A stretch of DNA of 64,000 nt from Simmondsia chinensis (Eukaryota; Streptophyta; Magnoliopsida; Caryophyllales; Simmondsiaceae): positions 24,041,212-24,105,211 of the forward strand of contig JAGTTD010000016.1 in NCBI GenBank assembly GCA_018398585.1, in the 5' to 3' direction. The notes under the pieces are model-generated. The model was not told where the DNA came from, did no database searches, and saw only the letters and a program-made list of their open reading frames with translations. A program made the translations under genes and the position numbers. Position 1 is the first letter of the stretch. Every line of letters starts with the position of its first letter. This document shows, in pieces, positions 3,057 through 58,994 of this stretch.

Positions 3057-9140
<6,084 letters not shown>

Positions 9141-9734: not shown

Positions 9735-9876
9735 CTACAACAACAACGAATCCAGTGCCTCAAGGGCTCCCGCATATGCAAGGTCTGGGAGGGGTAGGAT
9801 GTACACAGCCTTACCCCTTCAGGGTGCTACCCTAAAGGGAGGTTGTGTACGAGGACCCCCGACCTGAGAAGCATGA
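9735..9876 (-). mobile_element. SINE tail, headless relative of the 5S-headed family
   Basis: Read on the minus strand it matches the 3' halves of the four 5S-headed elements: a CTCAGGT(C/T)GGGGG start, ACCCTGAAGGGG, a GGCTGTGTACATCC block, CCCAGACC, CGGGAGCCCTTGAGGCAC, then TTGTTGTTG at the end (plus-strand CAACAACAA near 9738). The 5S-like head is absent. The sequence beyond is AT-rich with 'aagcata' repeats (9876-9945). No convincing TSD was found, so it could be 5'-truncated or carry another head. Confidence 0.6.
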
Positions 9877-11237: not shown

Positions 11238-11508
11238 TTTTTTAATCCTTTTAATAAAAAAAGAAAAGCAACATTCCCAGTGCTCCAAGAGCTCCCGCCT
11301 AAGCAGGGTCAGGGGGGGGATGTAAGCAACCTTCCCCCTTCAGGGTTTGTTTCTGAGAACCCCCAACCTGAGGGGTGCAACATAAGGAATTCCCAGGAGG
11401 TCACCTATCTTGGTACTACTCTCACTCAAGCACTCTTAACTTCGGAGTTCTAATGAGATCCGGTGCTTGCGTATTGGTACCCTCGTAGGTTTTTTAATCG
11501 TTTTAATA
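11238..11508 (-). mobile_element. 5S-headed SINE, copy 1 (element 11257-11489)
   Basis: Minus-strand element of 233 bp flanked by a 19-bp direct repeat with one mismatch (11238-11256 and 11490-11508, ttttttaatc(c/g)ttttaata). The head (about 11489-11365) resembles plant 5S rRNA: GCACCGGATC, CATTAGAACTCCGAAGTTAAG, GAGAGTAGTACCAAGAT, GGTGACCTCCTGGGAA, then TGTTGCACCCC, so the 5S part is near full length. The tail has CTCAGGTTGGGGGTTCTCAG, CCCTGAAGGGGGAAGG, a C-run, GGCGGGAGCTCTTGGAGCAC and ends ATGTTGCTTTTC. No LTR, PBS or coding frame is present. Confidence 0.85.
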
Positions 11509-11882: not shown

Positions 11883-12171
11883 GCTCCGTTTGTTTTAACA
11901 GAAAATAGGACTCTAGGAAGTGGTTTCATCTTTTCCGTCATTTGGCGCGCATGTTTTGACGGAAGAGATTTTCCGAGTGGAAAAGGTTTTCCCCTAGTGG
12001 AGGAAAAATGACTTCTTTTATAAAATTATGGAAGTCATGATTCCAAGTGGCACAATAAACTTTGCAGTGATCAACGTGCGGATAGGGATCAAATAGTTAT
12101 GAACTGGATGCAATATAAACCTTTAACGTCACAACGCCAGGCAGGAATTGGACCGAATAATCAAACGGAGC
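11883..12171. mobile_element. Possible MITE with 10-bp perfect inverted ends
   Basis: The ends are gctccgtttg (11883-11892) and caaacggagc (12162-12171), an exact 10-bp inverted pair around about 290 bp of non-coding DNA rich in 'ttttcc' and 'ggaaaa'. Flanking duplications are not visible, so this is tentative. Confidence 0.4.
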
Positions 12172-12237
12172 CAAATGTTACTTCGTCATTATTTTAGCAG
12201 AACAATTTTCATTATTCTAATTGTGATATAATATTGT

Positions 12238-12863
12238 ATAGGGAGATTATCAATTACATATCTCAAGATTTGAACATTTATTACATAGATACTCATATGT
12301 TTCAATAATATGCAATGATGTAAATAAAATTTTAAAAGTTTCATCATCCAAGTACTCTGAAGTTTAACAATTTTATGAATTAGGTATTTTTTGCAAAATT
12401 TGACAGATTCTCAACTAAAATTATTAACGGGAAGCATGAGTTCGACAACACATAGATATCCCTATCATAATGTGGTGATTTCTTTTACCAAAAAGGGCAC
12501 CAACACGCCGTCACCGGATCCCATGAGAACTCCGAAGTTAAGCGTGCTTGGGCGAGAGTAGTACCAGGATGGGTGACCTCTTGGGAAGTCCTCACCCTCA
12601 GGTTGGGGGCACTGGGAAACAGCCTCTCTTTAGGTTAACACCCTGAAGGGGGAAGGCTGCGTACATCCGCCCCCCCCAGACCCTGCGTAGGCGGGAGCCC
12701 TTGAGGCACTGGGTATGTTCCTTTTAATGTGGTGATTTCTTTTGTTGGAAAATGCTAGCATGACACATTATTTTGCTTATATTATATATATATATATATA
12801 TGATGTGATACTTAGGTAATAAATGCTCAAGTTTTAGGATACCTAAGAGATAATTTTCCTATT
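12238..12863. mobile_element. MITE with ~55-bp degenerate TIRs, split by a SINE
   Basis: The left end reads TATAGGGAGATTATCAATTA, then CAAGATTTGAACATTTATTAC. The right end, on the other strand, reads AATAGGAAAATTATCTCTTA, then AAAACTTGAGCATTTATTACC. They agree over roughly 40 of 55 positions. Removing the SINE at 12487-12724 and one TSD leaves about 370 bp. The MITE must therefore predate the SINE. Confidence 0.6.
12468..12743 (+). mobile_element. 5S-headed SINE, copy 2 (element 12487-12724)
   Basis: A 238-bp element bounded by a perfect 19-bp direct repeat, taatgtggtgatttctttt (12468-12486 and 12725-12743). The head, from about 12497, matches 5S rRNA: ACGCCGTCACCGGATCCCA, GAACTCCGAAGTTAAGCGTG, CTTGGGCGAGAGTAGTACC, AGGATGGGTGACCTC, TGGGAAGTCCTC. 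These include the type 1 pol III internal promoter boxes. The tail has ACCCTCAGGTTGGGGGCACT, GGGAAACAGCCTCTC, ACACCCTGAAGGGGGAAGG, CTGCGTACATCCGCC, CAGACCCTGCGTAGGCGGG and ends GGGTATGTTCCTTT. The flanking duplication and absence of LTRs point to LINE-mobilised retroposition. Confidence 0.9.
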
Positions 12864-13295
12864 TTATATACTTTCTATAGTTAAATTTTTATATTACTTT
12901 TTATATATGCCGTACTATTGCTGCTTAATTGTCCCATAACAAGATATAAGATGATTGGTGAAAAATGTTTCTTTCAAACCACATAAGAAAGCAACAATGC
13001 GGAACCAAGTTTTCCTTTAAAACAAACAATGGAAAACCTCAATCAAATTTTAAATTTCCTAGAAAAACCTTTTCCAAAGAAAATGCAATTCTTATAATCT
13101 ACTTTTCTGCCAAAATAAATGAAAGATGAAACTATAATTGGGGAATAGAAATTCATTTTGTTATTTGGTTAACCAGTTGGATTTGGAATTGTAGTTCCAA
13201 TGTCCAATTGCTTGGAATTAGATTTTAACTAAAAATCATACTTTCAAATTATTTGGATTGAGGGAAAAAATTGCAATTCCATAATCTATTGACCG

Positions 13296-18856: not shown

Positions 18857-19292
18857 ATGAATGACATGAGCTAAACATTGGCATCCCTGAAAAGAAAGAG
18901 AACCCTGACAAAAAAAAAGCAGGGTTCCACCCCCGATCGAAGAAGTCCTTAGTGAATCGGAGGAGGATACAGAAGAAGAGCACCCTAATGAGGAACGTGT
19001 TCCCCTACAGAACAGACCCACTGGACAAAACAGCCAGAACTCAGGTGACTCCTCTAATCAGTTTGATGTTGCAACAATGCACCAGCTCATGGTTAATCTT
19101 TTGCAACATCAACAACAAGCACAAGCTATGCCTCCCCTCACTCGACGTAGTGAAGAGACCCCGTTTGAAAGGTTGTCAAAATTGAGGGCCCTAAAGTTTG
19201 AAGGAGCTGATGACCCTTTAGAAGCTGAAAAATGGATACGAGAGATGGAGACCTTGTTTGAGGCCATGTCAATAGCCAATGATGATAAGGTT
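18857..19292 (+). pseudogene. Element A gag fragment
   Basis: Starts ATGAATGACATGAGC but meets a stop at once (MNDMS*). A shifted frame then gives LKRKR, followed by TMHQLMVNLLQHQQQAQ, PFERLSKLRALKFEGADDP and AEKWIREMETLFEAMS, the Ty3 retrotransposon gag domain, matching element B gag at 27868-28320. It is cut at about 19292 by the antisense hAT sequence, before the rest of the capsid domain and the zinc knuckle. Confidence 0.85.
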
Positions 19293-20235
19293 CGAAGCAA
19301 CTTGCCACCAAGATTGAAAGCACACTCCGATGCTACTGAAGACACCGGACAACTTAGTATATCACATGCCATGGTGGAAAGCACGGGATATTGGGTTTGG
19401 TTTGTGTTCCACCATTGTAATAGGTCAAAATTCGGGTTGGCCGGCGGCCCGAATATATGGACCATTGGTGTCCGCAAATAATAATCTAACTTGTCACATG
19501 ATGTGGGGGCTGCTGTGGGCGTAAATTGCTCCAACAGCTTCCACGAATATGACGTGTGTGAATTACTTCCACTAGATATGGAAGATCCTACTGCAGCAGT
19601 ACTAGGATTATTGGACGCTAATTGACGGGAATATTGAGAAAATAAACTATGCAAGTCGTTATCGACATCGGCAATGAAAGCGTCGATATTAAGAGAAGGA
19701 TTCAAGTACGTGAAAAAATGTTGGCAAAACAAGTTGAAACCCGAGCGTTTACAACGAGGGCCTAAAATAGTTGCAAAGCAATATGTAAGAGGTAGTTCAA
19801 AATAATATTTGGCAAACTTTTCTTTCATTGCCTGAATCGATGCGAACAAAACAGGGTTGAATTCATTACCCACCATCCAATTGACAATATCAAGCAATCT
19901 TGATATTGCTTGAGGCATGATCGGATAGTAGCAACCCGAAAAAAATATTGTTGCCTCTTTAAACATGCTAAGAAAGTCATAAATTTGATCTATTGTCTCC
20001 CAATTTATACCGGCCAGGTTGTAATCGCTCAATTCTGCACGATTTTCCTGGGCATATTCCATTAGAACGTCTTTGTATGGTAGAAGGCGCTCTAACATTT
20101 CTACCGTAGACGACCACCTATTTTGGGAGTCTAATTTAAATTGTTTATATTCTATGTTATGCAACCTACATAAATTTTTAAATTTTCTTTTTCTAGTGCT
20201 GGATGATTTTACAGATATTATTACCGATCTAACAT
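19292..20235 (-). pseudogene. hAT transposase C-terminal fragment captured in element A
   Basis: The minus frame gives about 310 transposase-like residues: KFKNLCRLHNIEYKQFKLD, NRWSSTVEMLERLLPYKDVL, INWETIDQIYDFLSMFKEAT, FASIQAMKEKFAKYYFEL (an RNase-H-like-fold and DUF4413-type linker seen in plant RICESLEEPER-like hAT proteins). It ends with the dimerisation signature DLLQWWNTNQTQYPVLSTMA and SVASECAFNLGGK. The frame remains open through the fragment and runs on into antisense gag to 19109, an artefact. The N-terminal BED finger and the first catalytic Asp region are absent, as is the last part of the dimerisation helix. There are no TIRs at its borders, so it is a captured piece and not an inserted transposon. 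Confidence 0.85.
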
Positions 20236-20603
20236 TTGAGATTTTGGCAAAAGTTCGAGACATGGCTTATAAAGTAGCCTTACCACTAGAACTGTCCAGA
20301 ATACATAACGTATTCCATGTTTCTCCATTGAGGAAGTATATTGCTGACCCTTATCACGTGACACGACACGAACCGTTGCAAGTACAAGAAGACCTGACTT
20401 ATGAAGAACATCCGGTTCGCATAATCGATCGGAAAGAGCACAAGTTAAGGCATAGAACGATCTCATATGTCAAGATTCAATGGAGTAACCATACTCATAG
20501 AGAAGCAACATGGGAGACAGAAGAAGAGAAGAGAAGCAAATACCCAAAATTATTCGAAAACGAAGGTAAGTTTCGAGGACGAAACTTTTGTTTAAGGGGG
20601 TGA
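20236..20603 (+). pseudogene. Element A pol C-terminus (chromodomain region)
   Basis: The frame gives FEILAKVRDMAYKVALP, RIHNVFHVSPLRKYI, DLTYEEHPVRIIDRKEHKL, IQWSNHTHREATWETEEE and KYPKLFENEGKFRGRN: the end of a Ty3 integrase and its chromodomain-like tail. The stop at 20601-20603 precedes the 3' LTR by three bases. Confidence 0.85.
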
Positions 20604-22758: not shown

Positions 22759-22893
22759 TGGTATCAGAGCAGGCTTGAATCGGGATCATCAAGCTTGTGT
22801 TTTTTTCTTCCTTCTTCCAGCCGTGCACTCCATTTGTGAGTCTTCTACTTATTCTCTTGTTTTTACTTGTGTTTTTTTCGTGTTTAATTCATA

Positions 22894-25800
22894 ATGACGG
22901 AAGAAAATACTAATCAAATTGTTGCACCTGGTGTTGAATCAAGGGGTGTTCCTGATGTGAACTCACCCTTTGACTTACACCCCTCAGATAATCCAGGTCT
23001 TGTTTTTGTGCAAGACATTTTAACGGGACCTAATTTTCCCGCCTGGAGGCGTTCTGTCTTCAAAGTTTTTAAAGCTAAAAGAAAGCTGGGGTTTCTTGAT
23101 GGAACCATTGTCAAACCCGATGAGTCTTCACCGGATTTTGAAAATTGGAGCACTTGTGATTCCATGGTCTCTTCATGGCTCACTAATTCCGTCTCCAAAG
23201 AAATCAATGCTAGTATAGCATATTTTGAAACTGCGCGCGACATTTGGTTAGATCTAAATGAGCGTTTCTCTCAAGGGAACACTCCTCGTATCTATGAAAT
23301 CAAACGCAAAATTTCACTCTTAAAACAAGAAAATAAGTCAATTTTTGACTATTTCACGAAATTAAGGGCTCTATGGGATGGGCTTTATACTCTAGTAGCC
23401 ATACCTCCATGTACGTGTGGATCAGGTCAAGCTTTTGCGGCCATACGGGACATGGAGAGACTACTTGATTTTTTAATGGGCTTAGACCCGTCTTTTTCTA
23501 TTGTGAGATCACAATTGATGAATTCCAAGCCCTTACCCTTGGTAGCTAGTGCCTATTCAACACTTTGTCAGGAGGAAAAACAACAAAGTGTTGCATCCGG
23601 TAGCATTGTTGTACCAGAGGCTGCAGCCCTTGTTGCTAAAGGGACTAATATGTTTTTGGGAGGTGGTTTGTCGTCAGTGAACGGACCACAACCCAAGCGC
23701 AATAATTGCCCAGTTTGTTCATATTGTAAGAAATAGGGACATACAAAAGACAGGTGCTTCGAGCTAATTGGATACCCACTGGGATGGAAGCAACCACGCA
23801 GCAGTAACGGGAGGCCTGCTGCAGCTACTGCGCAGCAGGCGTGGAAGGCTGCTGGTCGACAGCAGCTGCTGCTGCCAGCCCCCACGGACCAGCAGCCCGG
23901 AGCCCCGGACGCTAGCCCGATCGTAGGTCTTTGGGCTTCACAATATCAACAACTTTTGGGTCTTCTCAACTCAGGAAATTGTGCCCCTTGCGTTAACTTG
24001 ACAGGTCAGGGTTCGTTTGGTAGTAGTTGTTGGATTATTGATACAGGTGCAACGGACCATATGGTGCCATCTGATTTTACTTTACTTGATAGAAGGGTTA
24101 ATACCGAGATTCGTCCCGTTCGACTACCTAACGGCACTTGTTTGCCAGTATCACACGTTGGACGTGCCAAGATCACGGATGACATCATACTTGAAAATGT
24201 GTTACAAATTCCGGGCTTTCATTGCAATTTGTTGTCAGTAAGCAAATTAACTAGAGATATAAATTGTGCATTGACATTTTTCAAAATTTTTTGTGTAATA
24301 CAGGACCTGCCATCGAGGAAGCTGATTGGAGCGGGTAAAGAACGAGATGGGCTATACATGATGGAGTGCGCTGTCATTCCGAAGTCCGCTCAAGTCGTTG
24401 GTAGTACTAATAAGGGAGTTTTGTGGCATCGTCGATTGGGTCATGTTCCATTTAACAAATTGTCTAATTTTTCGGGTTTGGACATTGGTGTTGTTTTGGA
24501 TAATGTTTGTGACTCGTGTCATCAAGCTAAACAAACTCGGTTGCCTTTTCCTATTTCCGTTCGTAAATCTGTTGCTTGTTTTGATTTGCTTCATGTTGAT
24601 ATTCGGGGTCCATACCGTACGTTGTCAATGACAGGAGCTCGTTTTTTCCTCACTATCGTTGATGATCTTAGTACGTGTACTTAGGTGTATTTGATGCGTG
24701 ACAAGTCTCGGTCACATAAAATCCTCATGGATTTTTGTGAAATGGTACAGGTTCAGTACAATTCGCAGATTAAACAAATTCGTAGTGATAATGGAGCAGA
24801 ATTCCTTTTTGGGCCGTTACTTAACTTTTATGCAGGAAAGGGCATACAAGTGCAGAATTCCTGCAATGATACACCCCAACAAAATGGGGTAGTGGAGAGA
24901 AAGCATTGCCATCTCCTTGAAGTGGCCCGAGCCCTTAGGTTTGAAGCGGGTCTTCCTATTCAATTTTGGAGAGAATGCGTGTTGACGGCAGCCTATCTTA
25001 TCAATCTCATGCCTACAACACGTCTACAAAACAAGAGCCCATATGAAGTACTACTTGGTAAAATTCCTTCATATACACATTTACGCGTTTTTGGCTCGTT
25101 ATGCTACGTTCATAATAGGGATCGTAGTAAAGATAAGTTCGAAAGTAGAGCAATTCGTGGTGTTTTTCTTGGTTACCCTCATGGCAAAAAGGGGTACAAG
25201 GTCTATGACTTAGACAATAAAAGGATTGTAATCTCACGTGATGTAGTTTTTCGCGAAGATAGATTTCCATATGTTGAAGAAGGGAAGAACAATAGCTCAA
25301 ATAATGATGTTTTTGATTTAATTCATTATGTCGACGAAAGGAGTTTGATACAACCACGAGAAACAAGGGCCATAGGGGATCTCGCAGCACCGTCAAATGA
25401 CGGTGCTGCAGTGACTGACTGAACAGTGTTCGGTCAGCACAGTGAGGGGGAGGAAGCTGCGGGTCAAGCGGGGAGACCGATTCGTGTCCGTTCCATGCCT
25501 ATAAAATATCGAGATTATGTGGTTGATGTTCCTCCTTCGATAGCCCATCCTCGTGATACCCCTTCATCGGCTAACTCAGGTATGGTTTATCCTATATAAA
25601 ATTATGTTTCTAATGCACGATTTACTAACTCGCATTCTAATTTGCTACAAGCCATCACATCTTGTGATGAGCCTAAGAATTTTGCATAGGCAGTCGAGTC
25701 TCCTTATTGGAGGGAAGCAATGGAGAAAGAGATTTCGGCATTAGAACAAAACAAGACTTGGACACTAGAAGAGTTGCCCCCGGGAAAGCGAGCGATAGAC

Positions 25801-27204
25801 TCGAAATGGGTCTATAAAATCAAATACAAGGCTGATGGAAGCATTGAGAGGTATAAGGCAAGGCTCGTTGCCAAAGGTTAGACCCAGGTAGAAGGCATTG
25901 ATTATCATGATACTTTTGCTTCCGTTGCTAAATTGGTTACCGTTCGTTGTGTACTTGCAGTTGCGGTAGCCAGAAATTGGATAATGCATCAATTGGATGT
26001 GAATAATGCCTTTCTTCATGGTGACCTCGATGAGGAGTTCTACATGAAATTACAACAGGGTTTTGAAAAACAACATGCCGGTAAAGTTTGTCGTTTGCGA
26101 AAATTGCTTTATGGTTTAAAACAGGCCTCACGTAATTGGAATCAGAAATTCACAAATTCGCTTGTTGAAATGGGTTTTGTCCAGTCTAAGTCTGATTATT
26201 CACTCTTCACTTATAACAAGGGGGCTGTGTATACTGCTATCCTAGTGTATGTTGACGATGTTGTTATTACCGGGAACAATCTGAGTCATATTGAAGAAGT
26301 AAATTCAACGCTTAATGTTCAATTTGGCATTAAAAATTTAGGAGCGGTCAAGTATTTCCTCGGGGTAGAGGTGGCTCGCTCTCAAAAAGGGTTAATTTTG
26401 AGTCAACGAAAGTATGCACTTGATATCTTGAGTGAAACCGGGCTTATAGGTGGGAAACCGGTTGCCACACCGATTGTTCAAAATCACCGTTTGAGTGATG
26501 AAGAAGGGGAATTAGTTAAGGATTCGGGCCAATATAGGAGACTTGTAGGAAGACTTCTATATCTCACCATTACTCGTCCTGACATTTGTTATGCAGTTAG
26601 CATACTTAGTCAGTTTGTCCACAATCCTAGAGTTCCACATCTTGAAGCCGCTTTCCGAGTACTTCGATATATCAAGGGGACATTGGGTCAAGGGATTTTC
26701 CTTCCACATGATTCTGATTTTAACATTCATGCATATTGTGATGCTGATTGGGCAGGTTGTCTTACTAGCAGATGATCTACTACAGGATTCGTTGTTTTCT
26801 TGGGAGGAGCTCCCATATCGTGGCGTTCTAAGAAGCAGTCAATTGTTTCTCGTTCCTCTGCTGAAGCAGAATACCGTGCAATGGCCATTGTGACAACCGA
26901 GTTAGTTTGGTTGAGACGTTTATTAGTGGATCTTGCAGTTGACGTTCAAAAGCCCGCAATTTTATTCTGTGACAACCAAGCGGCACTTCACATAGCCTCA
27001 AACCCGGTTTTTCACGAAAGAACAAAGCATATAGAGATCGACTGTCATTTTGTTCGAGAGAAGCTGTTGGCCAAAGAAATCTCGACCTCTTTCGTGCGTA
27101 CATCAGGACAAGTGACTGATATATTTACTAAAGGGCTTTCTTCACCGTCATTTTCTTCTTTCCTTTTCAAGTTGGGCATTGTAAATTTACATGCTCCAAC
27201 TTGA
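22894..27204 (+). pseudogene. Copia gag-pol of element C, seven in-frame stops, no frameshift
   Basis: A single frame of 1436 codons from ATG at 22894 to TGA at 27202-27204. Order: gag (NPGLVFVQDILTGPNFPAW; zinc knuckle CSYCKK*GHTKDRC near residue 280), protease DTGATDHM (about residue 383), GAG-pre-integrase HRRLGHVPFNKL, integrase zinc and core (CDSCHQAK, HVDIRGPY, SDNGAEF, QQNGVVERKH), RT ([28 protein letters not shown], active site YVDD at about residue 1119), RNase H ([32 protein letters not shown]). Stops lie at 23734, 24682, 25420, 25597, 25687, 25879 and 26773. No indel breaks the frame over 4.3 kb. Gag-protease-integrase-RT order defines Ty1/copia. The sublineage is not assigned. Confidence 0.93.

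Positions 27205-27637: not shown

Positions 27638-27693
<56 letters not shown>
27638..27693. repeat. Poly-G homopolymer, 56 nt
   Basis: 56 consecutive G in the untranslated leader of element B, between two copies of 'gagagcc(c/t)ta'. The matching leader of element A (about 18700-18730) has no such run. Confidence 0.9.
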
Positions 27694-30741: not shown

Positions 30742-33700
30742 TCAAACCGAAAGACCCACTAAATTCGAGCAATGCTCGAACTTGCTACTTGGTAGAACTT
30801 TTATGAACATGTCAGCTGGGTTATCTTCAGTCCCAATCTTCCTCAACTCCACCTTCCGCTCGTCAATCAGATCTCTGATAAAGTGATGCTTCACATCAAT
30901 GTGTTTCGTTCGGTCATAATGAGTCATCTGATCTTTCGCTAGGTGAATAGCGGATTGACTATCACAGTATACTCTGACTGTCCCCTGCTCGACACTGATT
31001 TCACTGATCAATTCTCTCAACCAGACGACTTCTTTGAACGCTTCTGTTACTGCCATGTACTCGGCCTCGGTAGTAGATTGTGCTGTAACAGGTTGCAAAC
31101 ACGCTCTCCAGCTGATAGCTGTGTCACCTAAACAAAACACATACCCTGAAATGGATCTCCTCTTATCAAGGTCTCCACCGTAGTCAGAATCTACATACCC
31201 AACCAAACAGCACTTACTTTTCCCATATTCCAAACATAAATCAGAGGTTCCATGAAGATACCTGAGAATCCACTTTACTGCATGCCAATGTTCTCTGCCC
31301 GGATTCGCCATGTACCTACTAACTCTGCTTACAGCAAAAGCAATATTTGGATGCGTACAGACCATTGCATACATTATACTGTCCACTGCACTAGAATAAG
31401 GAATCTGAGACATGTACTTGATGTCCTCTTCAGTATAAGGCGAATCTAACGCTGAGAGTCTGAAATGAGCTGCTAAGGGCGTGCTAACCGGGTTAGCATC
31501 CTTCATATGAAACCTGTCTAACACCTTCTCAATATACTTCTCCTGAGACAAGTATAATTTTTCAGCTTCTCGGTCTCTATGAATTTCCATGCCTAATATC
31601 TTCTTAGCTGCTCCAAGATCCTTCATCTCAAATTCACTCTTCAGCATTGATTTCAAATCATCGACATCTTTCATATCTCAAGCTGCAATCAACATGTCAT
31701 CAACGTACAGAAGCAAATAAATAAAGCCTGAATCTGTCTTTTTGAAGTACACACAACTGTCGTACTTACTCCTGATGTAATCATGACTTGTCATGAACTG
31801 ATCAAATCTCCTATACTACTGTCGAGGAGATTGCTTTAAACCATGTAAAGACCGTCTAAGCAAACACACATGATCTTCTTTTCCTTCAACTACAAAACCC
31901 TCGGGCTGATGCATAAAGATACTTTCTTCTGGTTCACCATGCAAGAATGCAGTTTTGGCATCCAATTGTTCAAGTTCAAAACCATGAATGGCAACCAAAG
32001 ATAATAATGCACGAATAGAAGTGTGTCTAACTACAGGTGAGAAAATATCATGAAAATCAACACCTTGTACCTGACTGTAGCCTTTAGCTACCAAACTTGC
32101 CTTGTACCTCGCATCTTCCACTCCAGGAATGCCCTCTTTTCTCTTGAAGACCCATTTGCATCCAACCAGTCTTTTCCCTATAGGAGGCTTCACCAGTTCC
32201 CAAGTTTGATTCTTATGAAGAGACATCATCTTTTCATTCATAGCGACGAGCCACTTCTCAGCATCTGATCTCGATTCAGCCTCTGTATACGAAGTCGGCT
32301 CACTGTCATCTAACGTTTTAGCAGTAGAGAGGGCATAGGCAATCATCTCCTCATACCCATATCTCTCAGGAGGCCCGATCTGTCGCCTCGGTCTACCACC
32401 AACTATAGTAATATTCTCCACCTGCTGACCCGTTTCTGCATTATCAGTAATAGCATCAGAAACCCGTACCTGAGGTGCTGGAATACTCTCAAGCTGAAGA
32501 ATCTGCTGATTTGACTGTATCTCTGTATCATCAGGTGTCTCAACCTGAAAATTATCTCTGTTAATGAAGGGTGTGTGTGGCGGATTAAGTAGAGCAGACT
32601 CATCGAAAGCAACATCTCTACTCGTCAGAAACTTCTGAACACATGGATCCCACAATCTATATCCCTTCACACCTGACGTATAACCAAGAAAGATGCACTT
32701 CTTGGCCCTAGGCTCCAGCTTTCCATCATTAACATATGCATATGCAGGACAACCAAAAACTTTGATCTGAGAATAATCAGAAGTTGAACCAGACCATACC
32801 TCTTCAGGAGTCTTCATCTGTAATGAAGAATGCGGTGTCTTGTTCACAAGGTAGCAAGCCATGCTAACTGTTGCTGCCCACCATTCTCTCTTTAAACCTG
32901 CATTTGAAAGCATACAACGAGCCTTCTTAAGTAACGTCCTATTTAACCTTTCAGCTACTCCATTCTGCTGAGGTCGACCTGTACATGTCCTGTGTTGAAC
33001 TATGCCCTGATCTTCACAAAATTTAGTGAAGTCCCCTTCGACAAACTCAAGACCATTATCAGTCCTCAACCTCTTAATCGGCTTCCCTGTCTATTTTTCA
33101 AGCAGAACTTTCCACTTTTTGAAGATATCATACACTTCATTTTTTTGCTTAAGAAAATAGACCCAAACTCTACGTGAGTAGTCATCAGTGAACGTTAGAA
33201 TATACCTGGACCCACCTTTAGAACCCACTCTGGAAGGTCCCCACAGATCAGAATGTATGTAGTCTAACGTCCTCTTGGTCTGATGCACTGCTGCCTGGAA
33301 GCTGACTCTCTTCTGCTTCCCATAAATACAGTGCTCACAGAATCCCGTCAGTCCTGTTGACTGACCACAAAGAAGTCCCCTCTTACTCAGCTCAGATAAT
33401 GCCTTGTCACCAATATGACCCATTCTCATGTGCCATAGTCTTGTGATCTCTGCATCTGTCATAGCAGATGTGGAAACAGCAACTGCACCTGTCACGGTTG
33501 TACTTGCAAGCTCATACAAAGTACCAACCCTATTTCCTTTCATCACAATTAATGCACCCTTACTGACCCGCATGACTCCACCTTCAGCAGTGTACTTGTA
33601 CCCATTAGATTCTAGGGTACCTAGAGAAATCAAGTTCTTTTTCAAGTCCGGGACGTGACGAACATCACTTAAGGTTCTAATAGTTCCATCAAACATTCTC

Positions 33701-34710
33701 ACACGGACTGTTCCAACACCCACTACCTTACAAGCAGCATCATTACCCATCAAGACAACCCCACCTTGTATAGACTTATACGTGGAATACCAGTCTCTGT
33801 TTGGAGTAACGTGAAACAAACAACCAAAATCCATGACCCACTTATCTATGGACCTGGACTGAGAATCAGCAACTAATAGAAATTCCCCTTCACTATCCTC
33901 CTCTACAACACTAGCCTCAGCGGACTTGTCTTTACCCTGGTCACCTCTGGTACCCTCTTTTGATGTATTCTTATATCTGTAACAGTCTTTCTTTATGTGC
34001 CCCTTTTTGTGACAATAGTGACACGACAGGTTCTTATGTCTAGATTTGGACCTAGACTTATTCCCACCATTGGATCCCCTATGTTCTGATCGACCTCTCA
34101 CATGTAAGCCACTACCCGAGTCATTCACAGAGTCAGATAATTCCTTATCTACCCGTTCTTTACTCACTAGGTTTCTTTTTACTTCATCAACAGTAATAGT
34201 TGGCCTACCCCCGTATATCATGCTTTCTACGAAGCCCTTATACGCATTTGAGAGCGAACACAATAAAATCATATCCTGATCCTCGTCCTTAGGGACATCA
34301 TCCAAAGCCTTTAATTCATGAATAATTGAGGTAAATTCGCTAAGATGGTTTTTAAGAGATGTACCTTCTGCCATACGAAAAGTGTACAACCGCCTTTTCA
34401 CTGCGAGTTTGTTGGAGACTGACTTATGGCAAAATATGTCTAACAATTTCTCCCATAACTCCTGTGCGGTTTTAATCTCCAATACCTTTGACAAAATATC
34501 GTCAGCCAAACACATCTGTATAGCTGTGAGAGCCTTCTCATCCAACTCTTCCCACTGTGCCCTGGTCAACATTTCTGGTTTCTTCTCTTTCTCCTCCAGT
34601 GCTTTCTTCAAGCCATTCGGAGTCAGGAGTCCTTTCACACGGACTTGCCATAAGCTAAAGCTTCCCTGACCATTGAATTTCTCAACCTCGGTTTTAATAC
34701 TTGACGTCAT
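30742..34710 (-). pseudogene. Tnt1-like gag-pol of element D, three in-frame stops
   Basis: ATG at 34710 (MTSSIKTEVEKFNGQGSF), continuous frame to 30742. Gag with zinc knuckle CHYCHKKGHIKKDC; protease region WVMDFGCLFHVTPNRDW, where the catalytic motif expected as D-S/T-G reads DFG; GAG-pre-integrase LWHMRMGHIG; integrase CEHCIYGKQKRVSF, HSDLWGPS, RTDNGLEF, QQNGVAERLNRTLL; RT WVFKRKEG, KTAFLHGEPEE, YVDD (about residue 1002); RNase H YVDSDYGGDLDKRRS, STTEAEYMA, KHIDVKHHFIRD. Stops at 33091-33093, 31816-31818 and 31678-31680. There is no frameshift. The C-terminal DMFIK is one change from the usual DMFTK. Confidence 0.93.
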
Positions 34711-34746
34711 TGTATCAATTCGAAGAACCAAGCTCTGATACCAATT

Positions 34747-35265
34747 TGTGCGGAAATAAACAATATATTCGGATTTGAATTGAATCAAATACCACGACAA
34801 TAACGAGAAACAATCGGACTAAAAGAGAAACGAAACAATAGACACAAGGATTTACGTGGAAACCCCTTTACAATCGAAAGGGGAGAAAACCACGGGCGAA
34901 GATCGGAGCTTTTATTATTGAACAAAAGAAGAAGACGAATTACAAAGATTCTCTCTTAACACGCTCAATTTTATTGGTGCGGCGCCGCGCAAGGGAAATA
35001 ACCTCTCTTTGACTTTGGATACAAAATACGACGAACCCTCCTCCGTATTTATAGACTCGCAAAAAACCTGTTTCCTGATCGATCGGGGGTTCCCGATCAA
35101 TCGGAGTCCCGATCGATCGGTTCCTGCCGATCGATCGGCCGCTTCTCTGCAGACGTCCTTTGTTTATGTAACATTCCCGATCGATCGAGCCCCACCCGAT
35201 CGATCGAGGTCTTCATGGCCTTTCTTCTTTATGCGCCAAGTATATTTTGAGACATAAACCTAACA
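34747..35265 (-). repeat. Element D 5' LTR
   Basis: 519 bp. It has five GATCGATCG motifs plus a GATCAATCG variant within 35075-35210, just downstream of the TATTTATAG-like TATA (minus strand: gtctataaatacgg, near 35045-35060). Confidence 0.92.
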
Positions 35266-37160: not shown

Positions 37161-37173
37161 TAGTTATTAGACT

Positions 37174-37752
37174 TTGAGGGTGTGTGGACATGTGGGAAGG
37201 AAACTAGTGCACATCCTGATCGACTCAGGATTTACACACAAATTTATTGATACTACCTTGGCAACCAAACTGCACAGACACCTCAGTTCCATGGATCCCA
37301 TTTCAGTGGCTGTTGTTGATGGTAGTAGTTTGAAATGTGATACTAGATGTGAAGGCTTCACTTGGAGAATGCAGGGGCACACATACACTGTGAATTTCAT
37401 GCTTATCCCCTTGGGAGGTTGTGACATTGTACTTGGAGTAGAATGGCTATCTACTATAAGGGTCATTCAATGCAACTTCAAAGATCTTACTATGGCGTGT
37501 GTGGTGAATGGAGAACAGCACACATTAAAGGGCCTCAATGCCAAGTCCTACAAGATGATCAGTGTCAAAGCTACTTCCAAGGTTCTTGCCCACTCTCCCA
37601 TCATTTCCCTTCTGCAAGTTCAGCAAGAGAAGTGTACTTCTGCAACAGTGATGCTCAAGGGGGAAAAGGATGCAGATAATCAGGGCTCCTCTATACCTGC
37701 TAAAATCCAAGACTTATTAGAACAGTACTCATACCTTTTTAGTGAACCTTAG
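37174..37752 (+). pseudogene. Element E protease region
   Basis: VCGHVGRKLVHILIDSGFTH (catalytic D-S-G), CDIVLGVEWLSTI, then a linker ending in IQDLLEQYSYLFSEP just before the RT. A stop at 37168 separates it from gag. Confidence 0.82.
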
Positions 37753-37860
37753 CAATTGCCTCCACATAGACATGCTTTTGATCATAAAATCCACCTTAGA
37801 GAAGGTACTCAACCAATCAACAAGAGACCCATCGATACCCTGCACCACAGAAAGATATTA

Positions 37861-37930
37861 TTGAAGAAATGGTGCAAGAATTACACACTAAATTATTGAA
37901 GAAATGGTGCAAGAATTACACACTAAGGGG
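37861..37930. repeat. 35-bp perfect tandem duplication in element E RT
   Basis: The unit starting ttgaagaaatggtgcaagaa at 37861 recurs at 37896. The 35-bp step is not a multiple of three, so it shifts the reading frame at the start of the RT. Confidence 0.88.
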
Positions 37931-38611
37931 TACATACAGCATAGCTCTAGCCCCTTTGCTGCTGCTGTGGTGCTAGTGAAGAAGAAGGATGGCGGGTGGA
38001 GGATGTCTTTGGATTATAGGGAGCTGAATAAAGCCACAATCAAGGATGAATTTTTGATACCCTTATTGGAAGAGCTGATGGATGAGCTTGGAGGAGCTAG
38101 AGTTTTCTCCAAAATAGATTTGAGATTTGGTTATCTTCAAATAAGAATGCATGAGGATGTCACTCACAAAACAGCCTTCAAAACTCATTTCGGGCATTAT
38201 GAGTTTTGTGTATTGCCCAATGGCCTCACCAATGCTCCCTTTACATTCCTATCACTCATGAATTCTATCTTTGCTCCCTACCTACGAAAATTTGTATTGG
38301 TGTTCTTTGATGACATATTGGTGTATAGCAACAACATGGAATCTCACATCAAACACTTACAACTCACCTTCAATGTTCTTAAGAATCACCAGCTCTTTGC
38401 CAATAGAGGCAAATGTTCTTTTGCTGCAAAACATATTGAACATTTGGGGCACATTATCTCACACTTGGGAGTAGCTACCGTTCCTAAAAAGATTGATGCA
38501 GTCATGAAGTGGCCCCAACAAGTCAACCTCAAGCAGCTACATGGGTTCCTTGGGCTCACTGGCTACTACAGACGGTCCATCAGAGCTATGGGAGCAAGGC
38601 TAAACCCTTAA
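37904..38611 (+). pseudogene. Element E reverse transcriptase
   Basis: VQELHTKGYIQHSSSPFAA, VLVKKKDGGWRMSLDYREL, FSKIDLRFGYLQIRM, TAFKTHFGHYEFCVLPNGL, active site FFDDILVYS. The frame enters through the 35-bp duplication and breaks near 38580 (TGYYRR then a shift). Confidence 0.88.
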
Positions 38612-39153
38612 CAGAACTCTTGAAAAAGGATGGCTGGCACCGGAATGAAGAAACACATAGGGCTTTTAATGACTTGAAACAGGCAATATGTATAGCTCCC
38701 GTCCTAGCTCTGGTAGACTTCTCCAAACTGTTTATCATCAAGACTGATGCTTGTAATGTTGGTATTGGAGTCGTGCTGCCTCAAGAATCCTATCCTCTAG
38801 CCTTTATCAGCAAGCCACTCAGCTCAAAACAGTAACTCTTATCAGTATATGAGAAGGAGCTACCATCTGTGGTGTATGCAGTGCAGCAATGGCAACAATA
38901 TTTGCTCAACAATACTTTTATCATTAGAACAGATCAAAGGAGCCTAAAGTACTTGCTTGAGCAAAAGATCAGCACCCACTTCCAACAACTATGGTCATCC
39001 AAGTTATTGGGATTCAGTTATGTCAAAGATTACAAGAAGGGAAAGGAGAACATTGTGATTGATGCATTATCAAGAGTTTCAAGTCAAGAGGTGGTGTGTA
39101 TGGTGCTATCTTCAGTGGAAAGCAATTTGTACCCTCTGCTGCAGCTGTTCTAG
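38612..39153 (+). pseudogene. Element E RNase H
   Basis: PLTELLKKDGWHRNEE, FIIKTDACNVGIGVVL, stop at 38833, YEKELPSVVYAVQQWQQYLL, FIIRTDQRSLKYLLEQK, ENIVIDALSR: the Ty3 RNase H domain across two frames. Confidence 0.85.
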
Positions 39154-39279
39154 CAATCTAATCCTCTACTACAGCAAATCATAACAAAGCTGCAATAGAA
39201 CGATCAGAGCCATCCTCATTACAGCTGGGTACAAGGACAATTGAAGAGAAAAGGAAGACTGGTAGTGGGACAAGATGTT

Positions 39280-40527
39280 GAAATTAGAAATAAAATCTTA
39301 CACAGGTTACACACTTCTTCCTGTGAGTAACGCAACACTAAAAAAAGTCAAGTCCATCTTCTATTGGAAGGGATGACTAAGTTTATCTTGGAATTTGTCA
39401 AGAAATGTATTGTTTGTCAAGCATGTAAACACAAGACTATGGCATATTCGAGGCTAATATAGCCACTACCTATACCTGAAACCGTGTGGACTGACATCTC
39501 AATAGACTTTATAGAAGGCCTTCCTAGATCATTTGGGAAGGATCTGATCTTCCTGGTGGTTGAGAGGCTCAATAAGGCAGCCTATTTCATAGCCTTAACC
39601 CATCCTTTTATAGCCATGACAGTAGCTCAAGTATTCATGGACCATGTGTACAAACTGCATGGACTTCCAAGCACTATTGTTAGTGACAGAGACACCATCT
39701 TCCTTAGTGACTTTTGGCAAGCTCTATTTTCCACAAAAGGGGTAGATATGCTTTAACAACTTCATACCACCCTTAAACAGATAGCCAAACTGAGGTCGTC
39801 AATAGAGGCTTGGAGACCTATCTGAGATGTATGTGCAGTTCTTACCCTTCACATTGGGCTAAATGGTTACCGTTGGCTGAGCGGTGGTACCACTTGGCAT
39901 TCATCAACATACAAGACACTTTATGAGATTGTGTATGGTCAGCCACCTCCACTACACATCCCTTATCTTCATGGAGAAAGCAATGTGGATATTGTTGATA
40001 GAAGTGTAGCTCAAAGGGAAGAAACAATTCAGGTACTAAACTTCCACTTGCAGCGAGCTCAAAACATTATGGTTCATTTAGCCAACAAGAAGCATACTGA
40101 GAGGAGTTTCAAGATTGGTGATTGGATGTACCTTAAGCTCCATCCTTACAAGCAGATCACAGTAGCTCATCGTACCAATGACAAGCTAGCAGCTAAATTC
40201 TTTGGCCCATTCCAAATCATTGTTGCAGTAGGCAAGGTTGCCTATAAGCTGTCTTTAACCCCTGCAGCTAAGATACATGATGTTTTCCATGTATCTCAAC
40301 TCAAGCTGCACCATGGAACTCTACCCGATACACCCATTACAATCCCTAATCTTTGGAATCAGGTGCCTGTGTGTGAGCCAGAACTCATCTTTGACAAGAA
40401 GATGGTGAAGAGGGGTCACAGGGCATCCACAAAAGTCCTCATTCAGTGGAAAAACTTGCCAAGAGAAGATGCTACATGGGAATTCCTCTTTGATTTGCAG
40501 CAAAAATTCCCAAATTTTTACCGTTGA
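39280..40527 (+). pseudogene. Element E integrase and chromodomain-like tail
   Basis: The zinc region FVKKCIVCQACKHK, core WTDISIDFIEGLP and IVSDRDTIFLSDFW, then a shift. The TEVVNRGLETYLRC motif is visible in another frame near 39790. The C-terminus (from 39931) gives MYGQPPPLHIPYLHG, FKIGDWMYLKLHPYKQ, KFFGPFQIIVAVGKVAYKLSL, IHDVFHVSQLK and a chromodomain-like STKVLIQWKNLPREDATWE. The last part is open for 198 codons and stops about 28 bp before the 3' LTR. Confidence 0.85.
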
Positions 40528-41783: not shown

Positions 41784-42038
41784 AACAACACTAAAAAAAG
41801 GAACATAACTAGTGCCTCAAAAGCTCCCGGCTACGCAGGGGGGGGGGGGGGGGGATGTACGCAGCCTTCCCCCTTCTAGGGTGTTAACACGAAGAGAGGC
41901 TGTTTCCCAGTGCCCCCAACCTGAGGGTGAGGACTTCCCAGGAGGTCACCCATCTTGGTACTACTCTCGCCCAAGCACGCTTAACTTCGGAGTTCTAATG
42001 GAATCCGGTGACGGCGTGGTGGTACCCAACAACACTAA
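41784..42038 (-). mobile_element. 5S-headed SINE, copy 3 (element 41795-42027)
   Basis: Minus-strand element of 233 bp with a perfect 11-bp direct repeat, aacaacactaa (41784-41794 and 42028-42038). Head: GGTACCACCACGCCGTCACC, GGATTCCATTAGAACTCCG, AAGTTAAGCGTGCTTGGGCG, AGAGTAGTACCAAGATGGG, TGACCTCCTGGGAAGTCCTC. Tail: ACCCTCAGGTTGGGGGCACT, GGGAAACAGCCTCTC, GAAGGGGGAAGGCTGCGTAC, a 17-C run, GCGTAGCCGGGAGC, ending GTTATGTTCC. The structure is the same as copy 2, including the same 5S-tail junction (GTCCTCACCCTCAGG). Confidence 0.9.
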
Positions 42039-44119: not shown

Positions 44120-45463
44120 TCAATTGTACCTTCTGAACTTCCAAGCTGAAACGGAATAGAGAGGCCGATCTTGCCAACACAAGAACATAAACCCATTATC
44201 TTCTTTGATCTTATACCCATCAAAATTATTAGTATGCAAAAACCTCGTTGCTAGTAAGAGACCTTGATAGCTCAAAGGCGCATGTGCGAACCCAGCACCC
44301 TCGATCCGTTGAACCCATTTTTCGAGCTTCTCGTGCCTCACCCTTCGCTCGGTTCCTTCACACGCTACGATGTTCTTGATTTCATCCCCGAATAGCATCT
44401 TTTCTAGCTTTTTTCGCTCGGTTGATCCCCGTGGCATCGTCAGTTCTAAAGAGTCGAATAATGCAGCATAGAAGTTTAATGATTCGATAACGCGCTCCAT
44501 TAAAGAGCACCCGTTAAGGTCTGACTCTTGCTCGGTCACGACCATTATTTTAGGTGAAAGCCCAGAAATCGTTCTCAGAAAGGGTCCCACTTTGGGTGAG
44601 GTCTGTGGTGAGAGTGATGTCTGTTCTGGGCTCCGCTCTTTATCAAGTGAATCTCCTGATTTGGCCCGTTTTGGATTCCTTCGCGGCGTCTCATCGTCAA
44701 ATGCCAAGAGAGAATGCAACCGGGAAACCAAGCTAACTGCAAGTGCTTCTCCAGTCTTAACGCGTAAGCTTTCAACGTCAAGATCCTCTAATCCACTGAC
44801 AATGGGATTGAACTGAAACGGGATGTCCAGTTTTTCAGCTTCTTTCATTAACCGAGCAGCCATCTGATCCAACACTTCTTTTCGTTCGTGGACACCCGTT
44901 ATTCTCAAATGGGGCGGGCCCTCGGGTCGTATACTTAGTGCCTGCAGAAGACTAATCCATTGAGCTGGCTCGAATGAACCAAGATCTATTATGTGAACCA
45001 TCTTCTCCCCTTCCATGGCCTCAATAATTGCTTGGTTTGTAACGAGATAAGAGAGCTTTAAGAAGGGACAAACATCATAAAACAACCTCTGAGCTAGAAT
45101 TTCTTCTGAAATATTTGATATCTTGGTTGAGTTTAGGGCTTTGTGCAAACCGGGCCAACTTTTAAGCACGCGGTCAGCTAACGCCTCGGAGAAGTAAGCT
45201 GCAATACGCTGCATCGTATCTCCATCAGGACCAGCAAGGCATGAAATCTGCTCAAGGGTGATATTTGCATTCTCGATGCTGCCAGAAGCAACATGATTGG
45301 CGCACGTCAGAAGGAGATGGATTAGGCAGAGTCCTCTCTCCTCGGGTTTGAGCTCCCGAAGCCACGGGTAAGGAGACCTGAGACCCGAGGAAAGAGCCAT
45401 AAGTGAGAAGTATTGAAGAGGTGATGATGAAGTGGAAGATGATGACCCTTCCTCTTGAAACAT
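44120..45463 (-). CDS. SCL3: SCARECROW-LIKE 3 (GRAS family regulator)
   Basis: An intact, single-exon coding frame of 447 residues (Arabidopsis SCL3 is slightly longer). It starts MFQEEGSSSSTSSSPLQ, followed by SPYPWLRELKPEERGL typical of SCL3. Domains: LHRI from about residue 46 (LIHLLLTCANHVASGSIENA), then GDTMQRIAAYFSEALADRVL, VHIID at 156-160 (HIIDLGSFEPAQW), LHRII-like LVSRLHSLLAF near 245-255, a Ser/Pro-rich insert (260-290), ERVIESLNFYAALFDSLE (PFYRE region), and a C-terminal SAW motif CWQDRPLYSVSAW (429-441). In the known family SCL3 is a nuclear GRAS protein that promotes gibberellin responses by opposing DELLA and acts with SHR/SCR in root endodermis. No DELLA motif is present. The start is the first ATG after the inferred acceptor at 45511. 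Confidence 0.95.
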   Translation of the reverse strand: MFQEEGSSSSTSSSPLQYFSLMALSSGLRSPYPWLRELKPEERGLCLIHLLLTCANHVASGSIENANITLEQISCLAGPDGDTMQRIAAYFSEALADRVLKSWPGLHKALNSTKISNISEEILAQRLFYDVCPFLKLSYLVTNQAIIEAMEGEKMVHIIDLGSFEPAQWISLLQALSIRPEGPPHLRITGVHERKEVLDQMAARLMKEAEKLDIPFQFNPIVSGLEDLDVESLRVKTGEALAVSLVSRLHSLLAFDDETPRRNPKRAKSGDSLDKERSPEQTSLSPQTSPKVGPFLRTISGLSPKIMVVTEQESDLNGCSLMERVIESLNFYAALFDSLELTMPRGSTERKKLEKMLFGDEIKNIVACEGTERRVRHEKLEKWVQRIEGAGFAHAPLSYQGLLLATRFLHTNNFDGYKIKEDNGFMFLCWQDRPLYSVSAWKFRRYN

Positions 45464-45939
45464 TCCTCAGAATCGCTACTATATTGAGCTTCACTTCTAG
45501 AACCCGTTTTCTACAATCAAACGGGAAATAAAATCAGACTAATATTTCAATCAATCTTCTTGAACCCAGTAAAGAAAGGGTTTCAAGGAACCAAATATAC
45601 TAAAATCCCATACTATCCGAAAAAGGTCCAACAATGATTTTACATTCGAACATGTCTCCACACCGAACACCCATAGGGTTTAAAGCACTGACAATGCACT
45701 TGCCTACCTCGTATCACGTGCTTAGGTTTCACTAATATGAAAGTGGGGGTGAATGAAGTCAAGAGTCCAGAGCTCTCAATCAATGTGGCCCAAATACCAT
45801 GTTAAGGAAGAAACTATCCTAAAAGTTGAAGCAGTTAGGTGAGGACTTGAGAATGATTTTAGAGACACAAATTTGATAGATAGAACTACTTTTGGTATGC
45901 TTTATTGCAGAACATTAAAATGGTGTAAACTCATTCATA

Positions 45940-47017: not shown

Positions 47018-47275
47018 GGGTTCATTTACCAAGCACTAAGGCACCAGATCCCATTAGAACTCTGAAGTTGGGCGTGCTTAGGCGAGAGTAGTACCAAGAT
47101 GGGTGAACTCCTGGGAAGTCCTCGTGTTGCCAACCCTATAAGGTTAGGGGTCCTCGGAAACAACCTCTCGGCAGGGTTACAGCCTGAAGGGGGTAAATCT
47201 GCGTACATCCACCCCTCCCAGACCCCGCTTATGCGGGAGGCCCTGAGGCACTAGGTCTGTTGTTGTTGTTGTTTA
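47018..47275 (+). mobile_element. 5S-headed SINE, copy 4 with (TTG)n tail
   Basis: The head, about 117 bp (47018-47135), retains the whole 5S layout: GGGTTCATTTACCAAGCACT, AAGGCACCAGATCCCATTAG, AACTCTGAAGTT, GGCGTGCTTAGGCGAGAG, TAGTACCAAGATGGGTGA, ACTCCTGGGAAGTCCTCGTG, TTGCCAACCC. The tail has AGGGGTCCTCGGAAACAACC, CAGCCTGAAGGGGG, CTGCGTACATCCACC, CCCAGACCCCGCTTATGCGG, GAGGCACTAGG and ends TGTTGTTGTTGTTG. No clear TSD was found. This copy shows most clearly that the 5S part was full length and that the 3' end is (TTG)n. Confidence 0.82.
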
Positions 47276-51844: not shown

Positions 51845-52325
51845 GAGGTGATGTCTAATCGTCTTCATCCATCTCTCTTTAGGCCTGCCTCTCCCTCTCC
51901 TCCCGTGCGTGGTATGAAGTTGTTATAGGGGCAATAGTCAGTCTCCTCCTAACATGCCCAAACCACCGTAAAAGTTGCTTCCTCAATTTATCTTGGATTG
52001 GGGCCACGCCAAATTTGCATCTTATAATGTTAGTTTTGATCCTCTCCTTCCTCGTGTGTCCACACACCCATCGCAATATCCTCATCTCCGTCGCCTTCAA
52101 CTCATGCTTGTGCTACAGTTTAACTGGCCAACACTCCACACTGTATGATATAGCAGGTCTCACTACTGTCTTATAGTATTTTCCTTTGAACTTAGCATAA
52201 ACTTTCTATTGCATAATACCGTAGAGTTCATCCTCCATTTACGCCAGCCTCCTTCAATCCCGTTGTTAATATCCTCGTCAACTTTGTCGTCTTGCTGCAC
52301 TGCAATATGTAACCCAAATGCCATA
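51845..52325 (-). pseudogene. LINE (L1-type) RT C-terminal fragment
   Basis: The minus frame 51879-52100 gives KATEMRILRWVCGHTRKERI, KFGVAPIQDKLRKQLLRWF and GHVRRRLTIAPI. Upstream (to about 52300) another frame gives remnants of LYGVECWPVKL-like sequence. Plant L1-like reverse transcriptases end with E-M-R-x-L-R-W-x-x-G-x-T-R-x-D and L-R-W-F-G-H-V. Fragment only. Confidence 0.8.
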
Positions 52326-55619: not shown

Positions 55620-56880
55620 TCAAAGTGGTGCAGACTTGAAGGCTTCAATCTCCTTCTGATACTGCCACAAATCGTCCTCTTTTTCCCAACTTGCTTCCGC
55701 TGCTAGTTGTCCCTTCCAATGCACAAGGTACTCTGTGCACCTAGGCACACCTCTGTGCTGCACGGTCCTGTCAGCTAGGATCTGATCAAGGTCCTTGGCA
55801 TAGGAGGTTGTCATGGATGTAGGGTCACGCTGTGTCACGCCCCTATCCGGTTCATCCATGTCTTGATTATATGGCTTCAAGTAGCTCACATGAAAGACCG
55901 GATGAATCTTCAACTTGGGTGGCAGCTCCACCCTATAGGACACCTTTCCCACCTTAGCAATGATAGGAAAAGGGCCCTCATACCGGCGCACAAGCCCCTT
56001 GTGCTCCTTGCGAAGCGTGTTGAATTGTTGAGGAAACAACTTCACCATGACCATGTCCCCAATCCTAAACTCTAGGTGCCTTCGCTTAGTGTCTGCCCAC
56101 TTTTTCATCTTGCGTTGGGCACGGCTTAGGTAGGCCTTGGCAATGCCAAGCCTCTCTTGCCAATCCTTTGCAGTCTGGAACGCAGCAGGGCTGGCCCCTG
56201 TGTACCCGGATGTCACAGCCTGGGGTGTCAAGGGCTGTTGACCTGTGGCCAGCTTAAACGGACTATGTCCTATGCTCTCGCTGTGCTGCAGGTTAAAGGA
56301 GAACTGGGCTATGTCAAGCAACCGTGCCTAGTCCCTTTGGTTGGCACTCACATAGTGCCTCAAGTACAACTCCACTAAGGCATTCACTCTCTCGGTAAAG
56401 CTTGTGGAATAATGGAGGTTTGAGGCCATCAATTTGAAAAGCTCACTCTAAAACTTACCTATAAACCTAGGGTCTCTATCGCTAATGATACTCCTAGGCA
56501 AACCCCAATACTTGACCACATACTTGAAAAACAAGTGTGCGGCCTCAACGGCATTGCAATCCCTAGGGGTTGCAATGAAAGTCCCATACTTTGTCAAACG
56601 ATCTACTATATAGAAACCATACCTTCGGAGTTTGGCAAAGCGGAGATGAAGTCCATGGATATGCTTTCCCACGGATGGGTAGGTACAGGTAGAGGTTCAA
56701 GCAACCCAGCCGGTGTCTTCAACTCAACCTTGTCCTGTTGACAAACAAGACATGTCTTGACATACACCTCTACATCGTTCCTCATCCTAGGCCAATAATA
56801 GTTTTCCTCCAAAAGTGTCGTTGTCCTCTCGATCCCCGGGGTGCCCAGCCCAAGGCGTGTCATGACATTCCTTGAGTATG
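55620..56880 (-). pseudogene. Element G integrase and chromodomain
   Basis: Zinc and core: GIERTTTLLEENYYWPRMRN, VKTCLVCQQDKVELK, WESISMDFISALPNS (frame 2), back to the main frame with IVDRLTKYGTFIATPRD, SIISDRDPRFIGKF, a stop at 56448, then from 56321 a 233-codon frame LDIAQFSFNLQHSESIGHSP, DMVMVKLFPQQFNTLRK, KVSYRVELPPKLKIHPVFHV and a chromodomain (DQILADRTVQHRGVP, EYLVHWKGQLAAEASWE). A +/- pair of frameshifts near 56830 and 56640 leaves the downstream frame in register. Confidence 0.9.
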
Positions 56881-58910: not shown

Positions 58911-58994
58911 CAGTCCCCTGTGTGGATGCGCACCGTCATGTGCCTAGGTCCTGCTGGTCCTGCCTGCTACATGAACCTCCGCACGTCCCTGAGC

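Follow-up and report, generated by a model that had tools for sequence, protein, structure and literature searches.

The window analysed here, a stretch of 64,000 nucleotides of DNA from Simmondsia chinensis, contains copies of a short repeat with a 5S rRNA-derived head, a reading frame with a complete GRAS domain and pieces of other transposable elements (Table 1). The 448-aa GRAS frame has best listed matches that are 70% identical, and in a tree it pairs with Rumex (Caryophyllales) at 99/97, both being long branches. Pure homopolymer runs of 52 C (84-135) and of 56 G (27638-27693) are also present, besides a long C run in the tail of one of the repeat copies (copy B); the two pure runs are possibly an assembly artefact or the result of C-run expansion in the S. 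chinensis genome.

Table 1. Features of the window (position 1 is its first nucleotide)
Feature	Position	Strand	Remarks
Copy A, left TSD	12468..12486	+	19 nt, TAATGTGGTGATTTCTTTT
Copy A, 5S rRNA-derived head	12487..12597	+	111 nt; Rfam RF00001
Copy A, 5S-type internal control region	12536..12583	+	
Copy A, box A	12536..12550	+	limits presumed
Copy A, IE	12553..12558	+	limits presumed
Copy A, box C	12566..12583	+	limits presumed
Copy A, tail	12598..12724	+	127 nt, T run at end; LINE 3' end homology
Tail stem, 5 bp	12682..12695	+	CCUGC/GCGGG; paired in 24/25 cells, five copies
Copy A, right TSD	12725..12743	+	19 nt, TAATGTGGTGATTTCTTTT
Copy B	41795..42027	-	5S-headed; TSD 11/11 TTAGTGTTGTT at 42028-42038 and 41784-41794
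Copy C	11257..11489	-	5S-headed; TSD 18/19 at 11490-11508 and 11238-11256
Copy D	47029..47273	+	5S-headed; full 5S 3' end; LINE-like (TTG)n end; 5' limit uncertain
Copy E	9735..9870	-	tail only; TTG end; start at the 5S/tail junction
RT fragment	51978..52300	-	degraded; related to the partner LINE (tblastn)
Inverted arms around copy A	12231..12287 / 12813..12869		57 nt, 74% complementary
GRAS frame	44120..45466	-	open stop to stop; SCARECROW-LIKE 3 type
Ty1-copia retrotransposon pieces	22888..26775	+	gag-pol frame interrupted
Ty1-copia retrotransposon pieces	30742..34818	-	second element; gag-pol frame interrupted
Ty3-type chromodomain retrotransposon pieces	37171..40527	+	
Ty3-type chromodomain retrotransposon pieces	55620..59921	-	
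hAT transposase fragment	19109..20266	-	includes dimerisation domain

Copy A had been picked out by a sequence-only reading, which described a 238-bp unit between perfect 19-bp repeats, with a 5S-like head of about 110 bp including a 5S-type internal promoter region, a unique tail of about 115 bp and no LTR, and which took it for a member of a SINE family. The unit is real (12487-12724) and its flanking repeats are perfect, a score that was equalled by 1 in 1000 random pairs of window stretches. The head has the length proposed, and box A, IE and box C could be placed in it, their limits being presumed from the 5S promoter layout. The tail is longer than had been thought and cannot be called unique, as a LINE of this genome has a matching 3' end (see below). 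There is no LTR pair around copy A, since the sole other direct repeat within 11800-13400 is 16 nt long. The C-box of copy A, AGGATGGGTG, is the canonical motif given in PMC10853983. Copy A is enclosed by inverted arms and may lie inside an older MITE-like element.

Where the earlier reading saw this one copy, five are present in the window, namely four with a 5S head (A-D) and one that consists of the tail only (E). Rfam RF00001 matches the four heads (12487-12604 (+), 41920-42029 (-), 11372-11490 (-) and 47014-47135 (+)) with 58-68 bits, the match to copy A having 67.8 bits and an E value of 3.8e-12, and a BLAST search of the window with copy A recovered B at 92%, D at 80%, C at 76% and E (9868-9752) at 85% identity. 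No sixth copy was found in the window with a profile made from the five; its next matches were the opposite strand of copy E (E 0.0016) and another at E 0.57. An ungapped comparison of the flanks of the five copies gave TSDs of 19/19 for A, 11/11 for B and 18/19 for C, none of these scores being attained by more than 3 in 1000 random pairs. The same comparison gave none for D and E, which counts against the SINE model. The flanks of the copies are unrelated, save where adjacent copies have one and the same stretch of DNA as flank; none of copies A-D has an LTR pair around it, as had been stated for copy A, and the longest stop-free frame inside any window copy is 74 aa. The 5S/tail junction is the same in all 5S-headed copies of the window, and heads (78-94%) and tails (71-91%) have diverged in parallel between the copies, so the fusion of 5S and tail is older than the spread of the copies.

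The head of the element is 5S rRNA-derived, as in the SINE3 class. Compared with a provisional Arabidopsis 5S reference, the heads are identical in 84/95 (A), 84/96 (B), 90/108 (C) and 91/103 (D) aligned columns, which places these matches more than 30 SD above dinucleotide shuffles. In the alignment to this reference the first base of copy A falls on the 5S +1 position. Copy C spans 5S positions 2-119 and thus practically the whole gene, and copies A and B are short of 7-8 nt near the 5S 3' end, a gap that occupies 11 columns in the four-copy alignment because copy D has an insertion there. Independently of this reference, an antisense frame of copy D matches annotated antisense 5S frames of Phaseolus, Stylosanthes and Brassica. 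The protein search with this frame returned 28 matches, from which 16 sequences were inspected and 3 compared pairwise; as the matches in these are convincing only over the 5S part, the search shows no fused element in other plants. As regards RNA structure, the numbers of pairs given by RNAalifold were 47 for the full alignment and 33 for the tail, three of them in each case with a two-sided change. The 5-bp tail stem has no covariation in the five copies, and the predicted folding of copy A RNA is at the level of its shuffles (z -0.58, with 52 of 200 shuffles folding as well), so that we make no claim on RNA structure.

Dispersal of the family in the host genome

The host assembly (831,394,711 bases in 35 contigs) yielded 3548 first-look candidates, the best 40 of which were scored, with 41 matches listed at an E value of 7e-74 or better. 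Besides the query there are 39 matches, taken from the best of the 3548 candidates, that are 94-98% identical to copy A and lie on many contigs, and those listed are confined to the element or overrun it slightly. Two matches fall within one locus, and the 39 other loci extracted bring the set to 40 copies, which, being the best matches to copy A, are biased towards the young subfamily of A. All 40 copies are distinct, with a median of 2.1% (0.4-12.8%) off the majority row, and their most variable listed columns are mainly C/T and G/A. Upstream of the final 12 nt, no T4 run occurs in any of the 40, in contrast to copy B of the window, which has an internal T4.

A TSD score of at least 11 (p<0.01) was obtained for 31 of the 40 host copies, and 19 of the 31 TSDs are perfect; in the control, for which mismatched pairs were used, the median was 6, with 9 at 95%, 10 at 99% and a maximum of 13. 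Most TSDs are 11-25 nt long. Where a TSD is present, it is usually followed immediately by the element, which starts at ACCAAAGAGGG or 1-2 nt away from it, and the loci L142 and L167 are among the few whose accepted TSDs sit slightly off the element end. The nine host copies that fall below the threshold count against the SINE model.

In twenty hand-placed 10-kb stretches (200,000 bases), we found nine 5S-headed copies, one head fragment, four clear tail-only copies and weaker tail pieces. Seven of the nine 5S-headed copies have a TSD score of at least 11, by the threshold of the 40-copy control. Scaled from nine in this 200-kb sample, the genome would hold about 37,000 5S-headed copies, and the Poisson 95% interval for nine (4.1-17.1) corresponds to 17,000-71,000. 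The head/tail junction sequence of the family is given as 5S/CAGGTTGGGG. All 13 5S-headed copies of window and sample have one junction in common and are of three forms: a shortened 5S 3' end (6/13), a full 5S 3' end followed by T-AGG (4/13) and a full 5S with CCAACCCTATAAGG or a sequence near it (3/13).

Among the 40 host copies, box A is intact in 34, IE in 37 and box C in 25. Within the four window copies, 30 of 39 columns are invariant in the promoter region compared with 39 of 49 in the rest of the head, and in the 40 host copies the mean minor fraction is 0.0214 compared with 0.0238. Neither set shows the promoter region to be more conserved than the remaining head, and therefore the suggestion that the head functions as a 5S-type promoter is drawn from sequence identity and not from selection.

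Taken as a family, the element is short (238 bp, and thus <500 bp), non-coding and dispersed, and has variable-length TSDs of the LINE type (the 31 host copies and copies A, B and C of the window). Its 5S match provides a head that is derived from a pol III transcript and has an internal promoter, and its 3' end is shared with two LINEs of the same genome. These are the features of a SINE. The observation of a 5S-headed SINE at copy A is confirmed, and the dispersed copies, the long TSDs and the 5S head support the reading of copy A as one member of such a family, which is abundant and has been active recently.

The tail and its probable partner LINE

Over 124 columns the tail of copy A shares 83% identity with the LINE 3' end at locus L187 (E 7e-33), and in the comparison of this LINE end with the window copies identities were 83% for E and A, 80% for D, 78% for B and, over part only, 83% for C. 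At L187 an RT reading frame of 266 aa (Pfam RVT_1, E 6.8e-17) lies upstream of a tail-only copy, and L186, where tblastn detects related RT sequence at E 2e-46, terminates in that tail too; the DNA of the two LINEs agrees to 68% over 531 nt (E 5e-47). The copy at position 5633 of locus L168 also has the tail at its end and, besides, 84 nt in common with the 3' region of the LINE (80%, E 1e-16). As LINEs with RT sequence end in this tail, the SINE tail is, judged from the alignments, a LINE 3' end. The LINE-driven priming that had previously been deduced from TSD length can hence be based on shared sequence as well. At L187 a 5S-headed copy (4182-4410 (+)) is located about 950 nt upstream of the LINE RT frame, in the opposite orientation.

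The 5S/tail junction (profile positions 110-116) is where copy E and all four clear tail-only copies from the sample start, an outcome that random truncation would not give; three weaker tail pieces start elsewhere (profile positions 124, 142 and 187). Copy E is most likely a 5'-truncated LINE 3' end. A stretch rich in T/GCTT immediately precedes the tail in two tail-only copies, at L168 (487-362 (-)) and in the window (upstream of 9870 (-)), and at L168 there is a direct repeat matching in 18 of 19 nt, 69 nt further upstream; these copies could represent another short element that has this tail, or a truncated LINE subfamily.

No tail was found downstream of the RT fragment of the window, which counts against the SINE model, and no endonuclease domain was found in nine reading frames near three tail copies. 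The 3' ends also differ, as young SINE copies end in T runs whereas the tail of the L187 LINE runs on into (TTG)n. It has been stated that the terminal repeat of plant RTE LINEs is (TTG)n or (TTGATG)n, and that of plant L1 elements mostly (A)n (Ohshima 2013, PMC3747384). An end of the TTG type, as opposed to the poly(A) of L1, makes it most likely that the partner is RTE-like. This assignment to a clade combines the terminal repeat with a C-terminal motif, the C-terminal frame at L186 presumably resembling RTE ends.

A different source for the tail has to be considered, namely that an Au-type (Angio-SINE) tRNA SINE has swapped its tRNA promoter for a 5S head, in which case the tail would be SINE-derived and not directly LINE-derived. 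The tails do resemble a presumed piece of the wheat Au SINE, with z scores over dinucleotide shuffles of 10.3 (A), 9.6 (D), 8.5 (E), 7.3 (B) and 4.2 (C); furthermore, many SINEs of angiosperms are reported to have a 37-bp Angio-domain in their 3' end (PMC9033089). However, no tRNA gene was found, the best box-B match of the element has three mismatches and is at shuffle level, and LINEs of the same genome carry the same tail, so that we regard such a promoter swap as unlikely. Both readings may be true at once should the Angio-domain itself derive from LINEs of this kind. Scans of viral contigs and genome contigs gave no independent Angio-domain sequence, the element had no blastn match in plasmids and phages, and the 5S pattern had none in viral contigs; the bare Angio-domain 14-mer occurs in at least 120 viral stretches and was not used as evidence.

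It is very improbable that the copies represent Cassandra TRIMs or solo LTRs, which have the 5S sequence inside the LTR and would have been formed by LTR-type reverse transcription. Cassandra is the known plant retroelement with 5S sequence, but according to PMC10853983 this sequence is never located at the LTR termini and has a core of about 70 bp, with more than 100 nt in some species, whereas here the 5S is at the 5' end of the element and, in copy C, covers positions 2-119. The element ends are other than TG..CA, the element has no internal region that could accommodate a PBS and a PPT, and no second identical unit lies nearby in the copies examined, which bears out the earlier statement that the element is not a TRIM. 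The TSDs are long, unlike the 5 bp of LTR elements including Cassandra, and a general pattern of TSDs of 5 bp only, which had been named as a sign against a SINE, is not present in the copies examined. With no LTR pair, long TSDs and a LINE 3' end as tail, a Cassandra or solo LTR origin is rejected for these copies. That 5S retropseudogenes, which are common in plants, or rDNA fragments have by chance come to lie beside an unrelated repeat is next to inconceivable, and it is ruled out by the single junction in all 13 copies at unrelated sites, by TSDs that enclose head and tail together and by the thousands of candidates in the host assembly.

Proposed origin and known systems

We consider it very probable that the family is a non-autonomous SINE in which practically the whole 5S rRNA is followed by the terminal ~125 nt of an RTE-like LINE with a TTG end, and it is most likely that such a LINE has moved it. 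According to this model, pol III would be recruited by the 5S internal control region, and transcription from near the 5S +1 position to the terminal T run would result in a full-length RNA; T-ended young copies that are free of an earlier T4 would fit pol III termination at the end of the element. The LINE enzyme would then recognise the common 3' tail of the SINE RNA and integrate a copy elsewhere through target-primed reverse transcription, with TSDs as a result. The element itself may have originated when a LINE RT, having copied the 3' end of its own RNA, switched template to a 5S rRNA, which it entered at the 3' end and copied to the start; a full 5S whose 3' end is joined to a LINE 3' end would be the expected product of such a template jump. 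It has been inferred that a single plant LINE RT can prime on RNA whether this ends in poly(A) or in poly(U) (Baucom et al., PMC2774510), and dual priming of this kind would ease the difference between the T and TTG ends.

The family is likely the first 5S SINE in plants. Plant SINEs (PMC9033089), or nearly all of them (PMC10741241), are stated to be tRNA-derived, a dedicated search for 5S SINEs in maize is reported to have found none (PMC2774510), and where the 2024 Cassandra paper (PMC10853983) mentions new promoters of SINEs it does so for animals. The literature searched, with Repbase, SINEBase and key subscription papers outside its scope, contained no described plant 5S SINE in the texts available. 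Apparent prior reports were set aside: the Arabidopsis 'SINE3' of ~160 bp shares the family name only, in a paper that does not mention 5S rRNA, for the phrase 'SINE3 ... including plants' PMC3095306 gives the Cassandra paper as its source, and the SINE3 term in PMC7852121 is actually p-SINE3. The fuller proposal, that this is the first 5S-headed SINE family of land plants, with tens of thousands of copies and born when the RT of an RTE-like LINE jumped from the LINE 3' end to an intact 5S rRNA, is a tentative one to which we give somewhat less than even weight.

If this is true, the conserved Angio-domain of many plant SINEs would be an RTE LINE 3' end, and Au-type SINEs would gain a partner LINE, for which no data are listed (PMC3747384). 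For the present family, the same-tailed LINE of this genome is a concrete candidate partner. A large young 5S-headed family would show that a 5S promoter is able to drive a plant SINE. It has been speculated that Cassandra descends from a SINE3 insertion (quoted in PMC10886601), and a plant 5S SINE makes this origin testable in plants. Tools that are limited to the tRNA boxes A and B would overlook 5S-headed families.

Several known systems share one part or another of this architecture. The tobacco TS SINE and the Au SINE/Angio-SINE differ from the present family by their tRNA-derived heads, which in Angio-SINEs contain the boxes A and B, and BovB LINEs belong to the RTE clade. The ~100-base 3' end of the TS SINE is nearly identical to that of RTE-1_STu, both being TTG-ended, and for the Au SINE, whose presumed sequence has a similar tail, a short T end is listed (PMC3747384). 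A 5S-type pol III head is also found in zebrafish SINE3, AmnSINE1, HaSE3 and the 5S-related SINEs of Aspergillus fumigatus, all of which have hosts other than plants, and the tails of the fish and amniote 5S SINEs are listed as CR1-type LINE (PMC3747384), unlike that of the present family. Cassandra is likewise a plant retroelement bearing a 5S promoter, with the 5S inside the LTR and with the PBS and PPT described for TRIMs in general. The architecture itself, a 5S head with the 3' end of a LINE, there given as BovB, is already listed for the springhare SINE Ped-1 (Ohshima 2013, PMC3747384), a mammalian element compared here by its description and presumably of independent origin.
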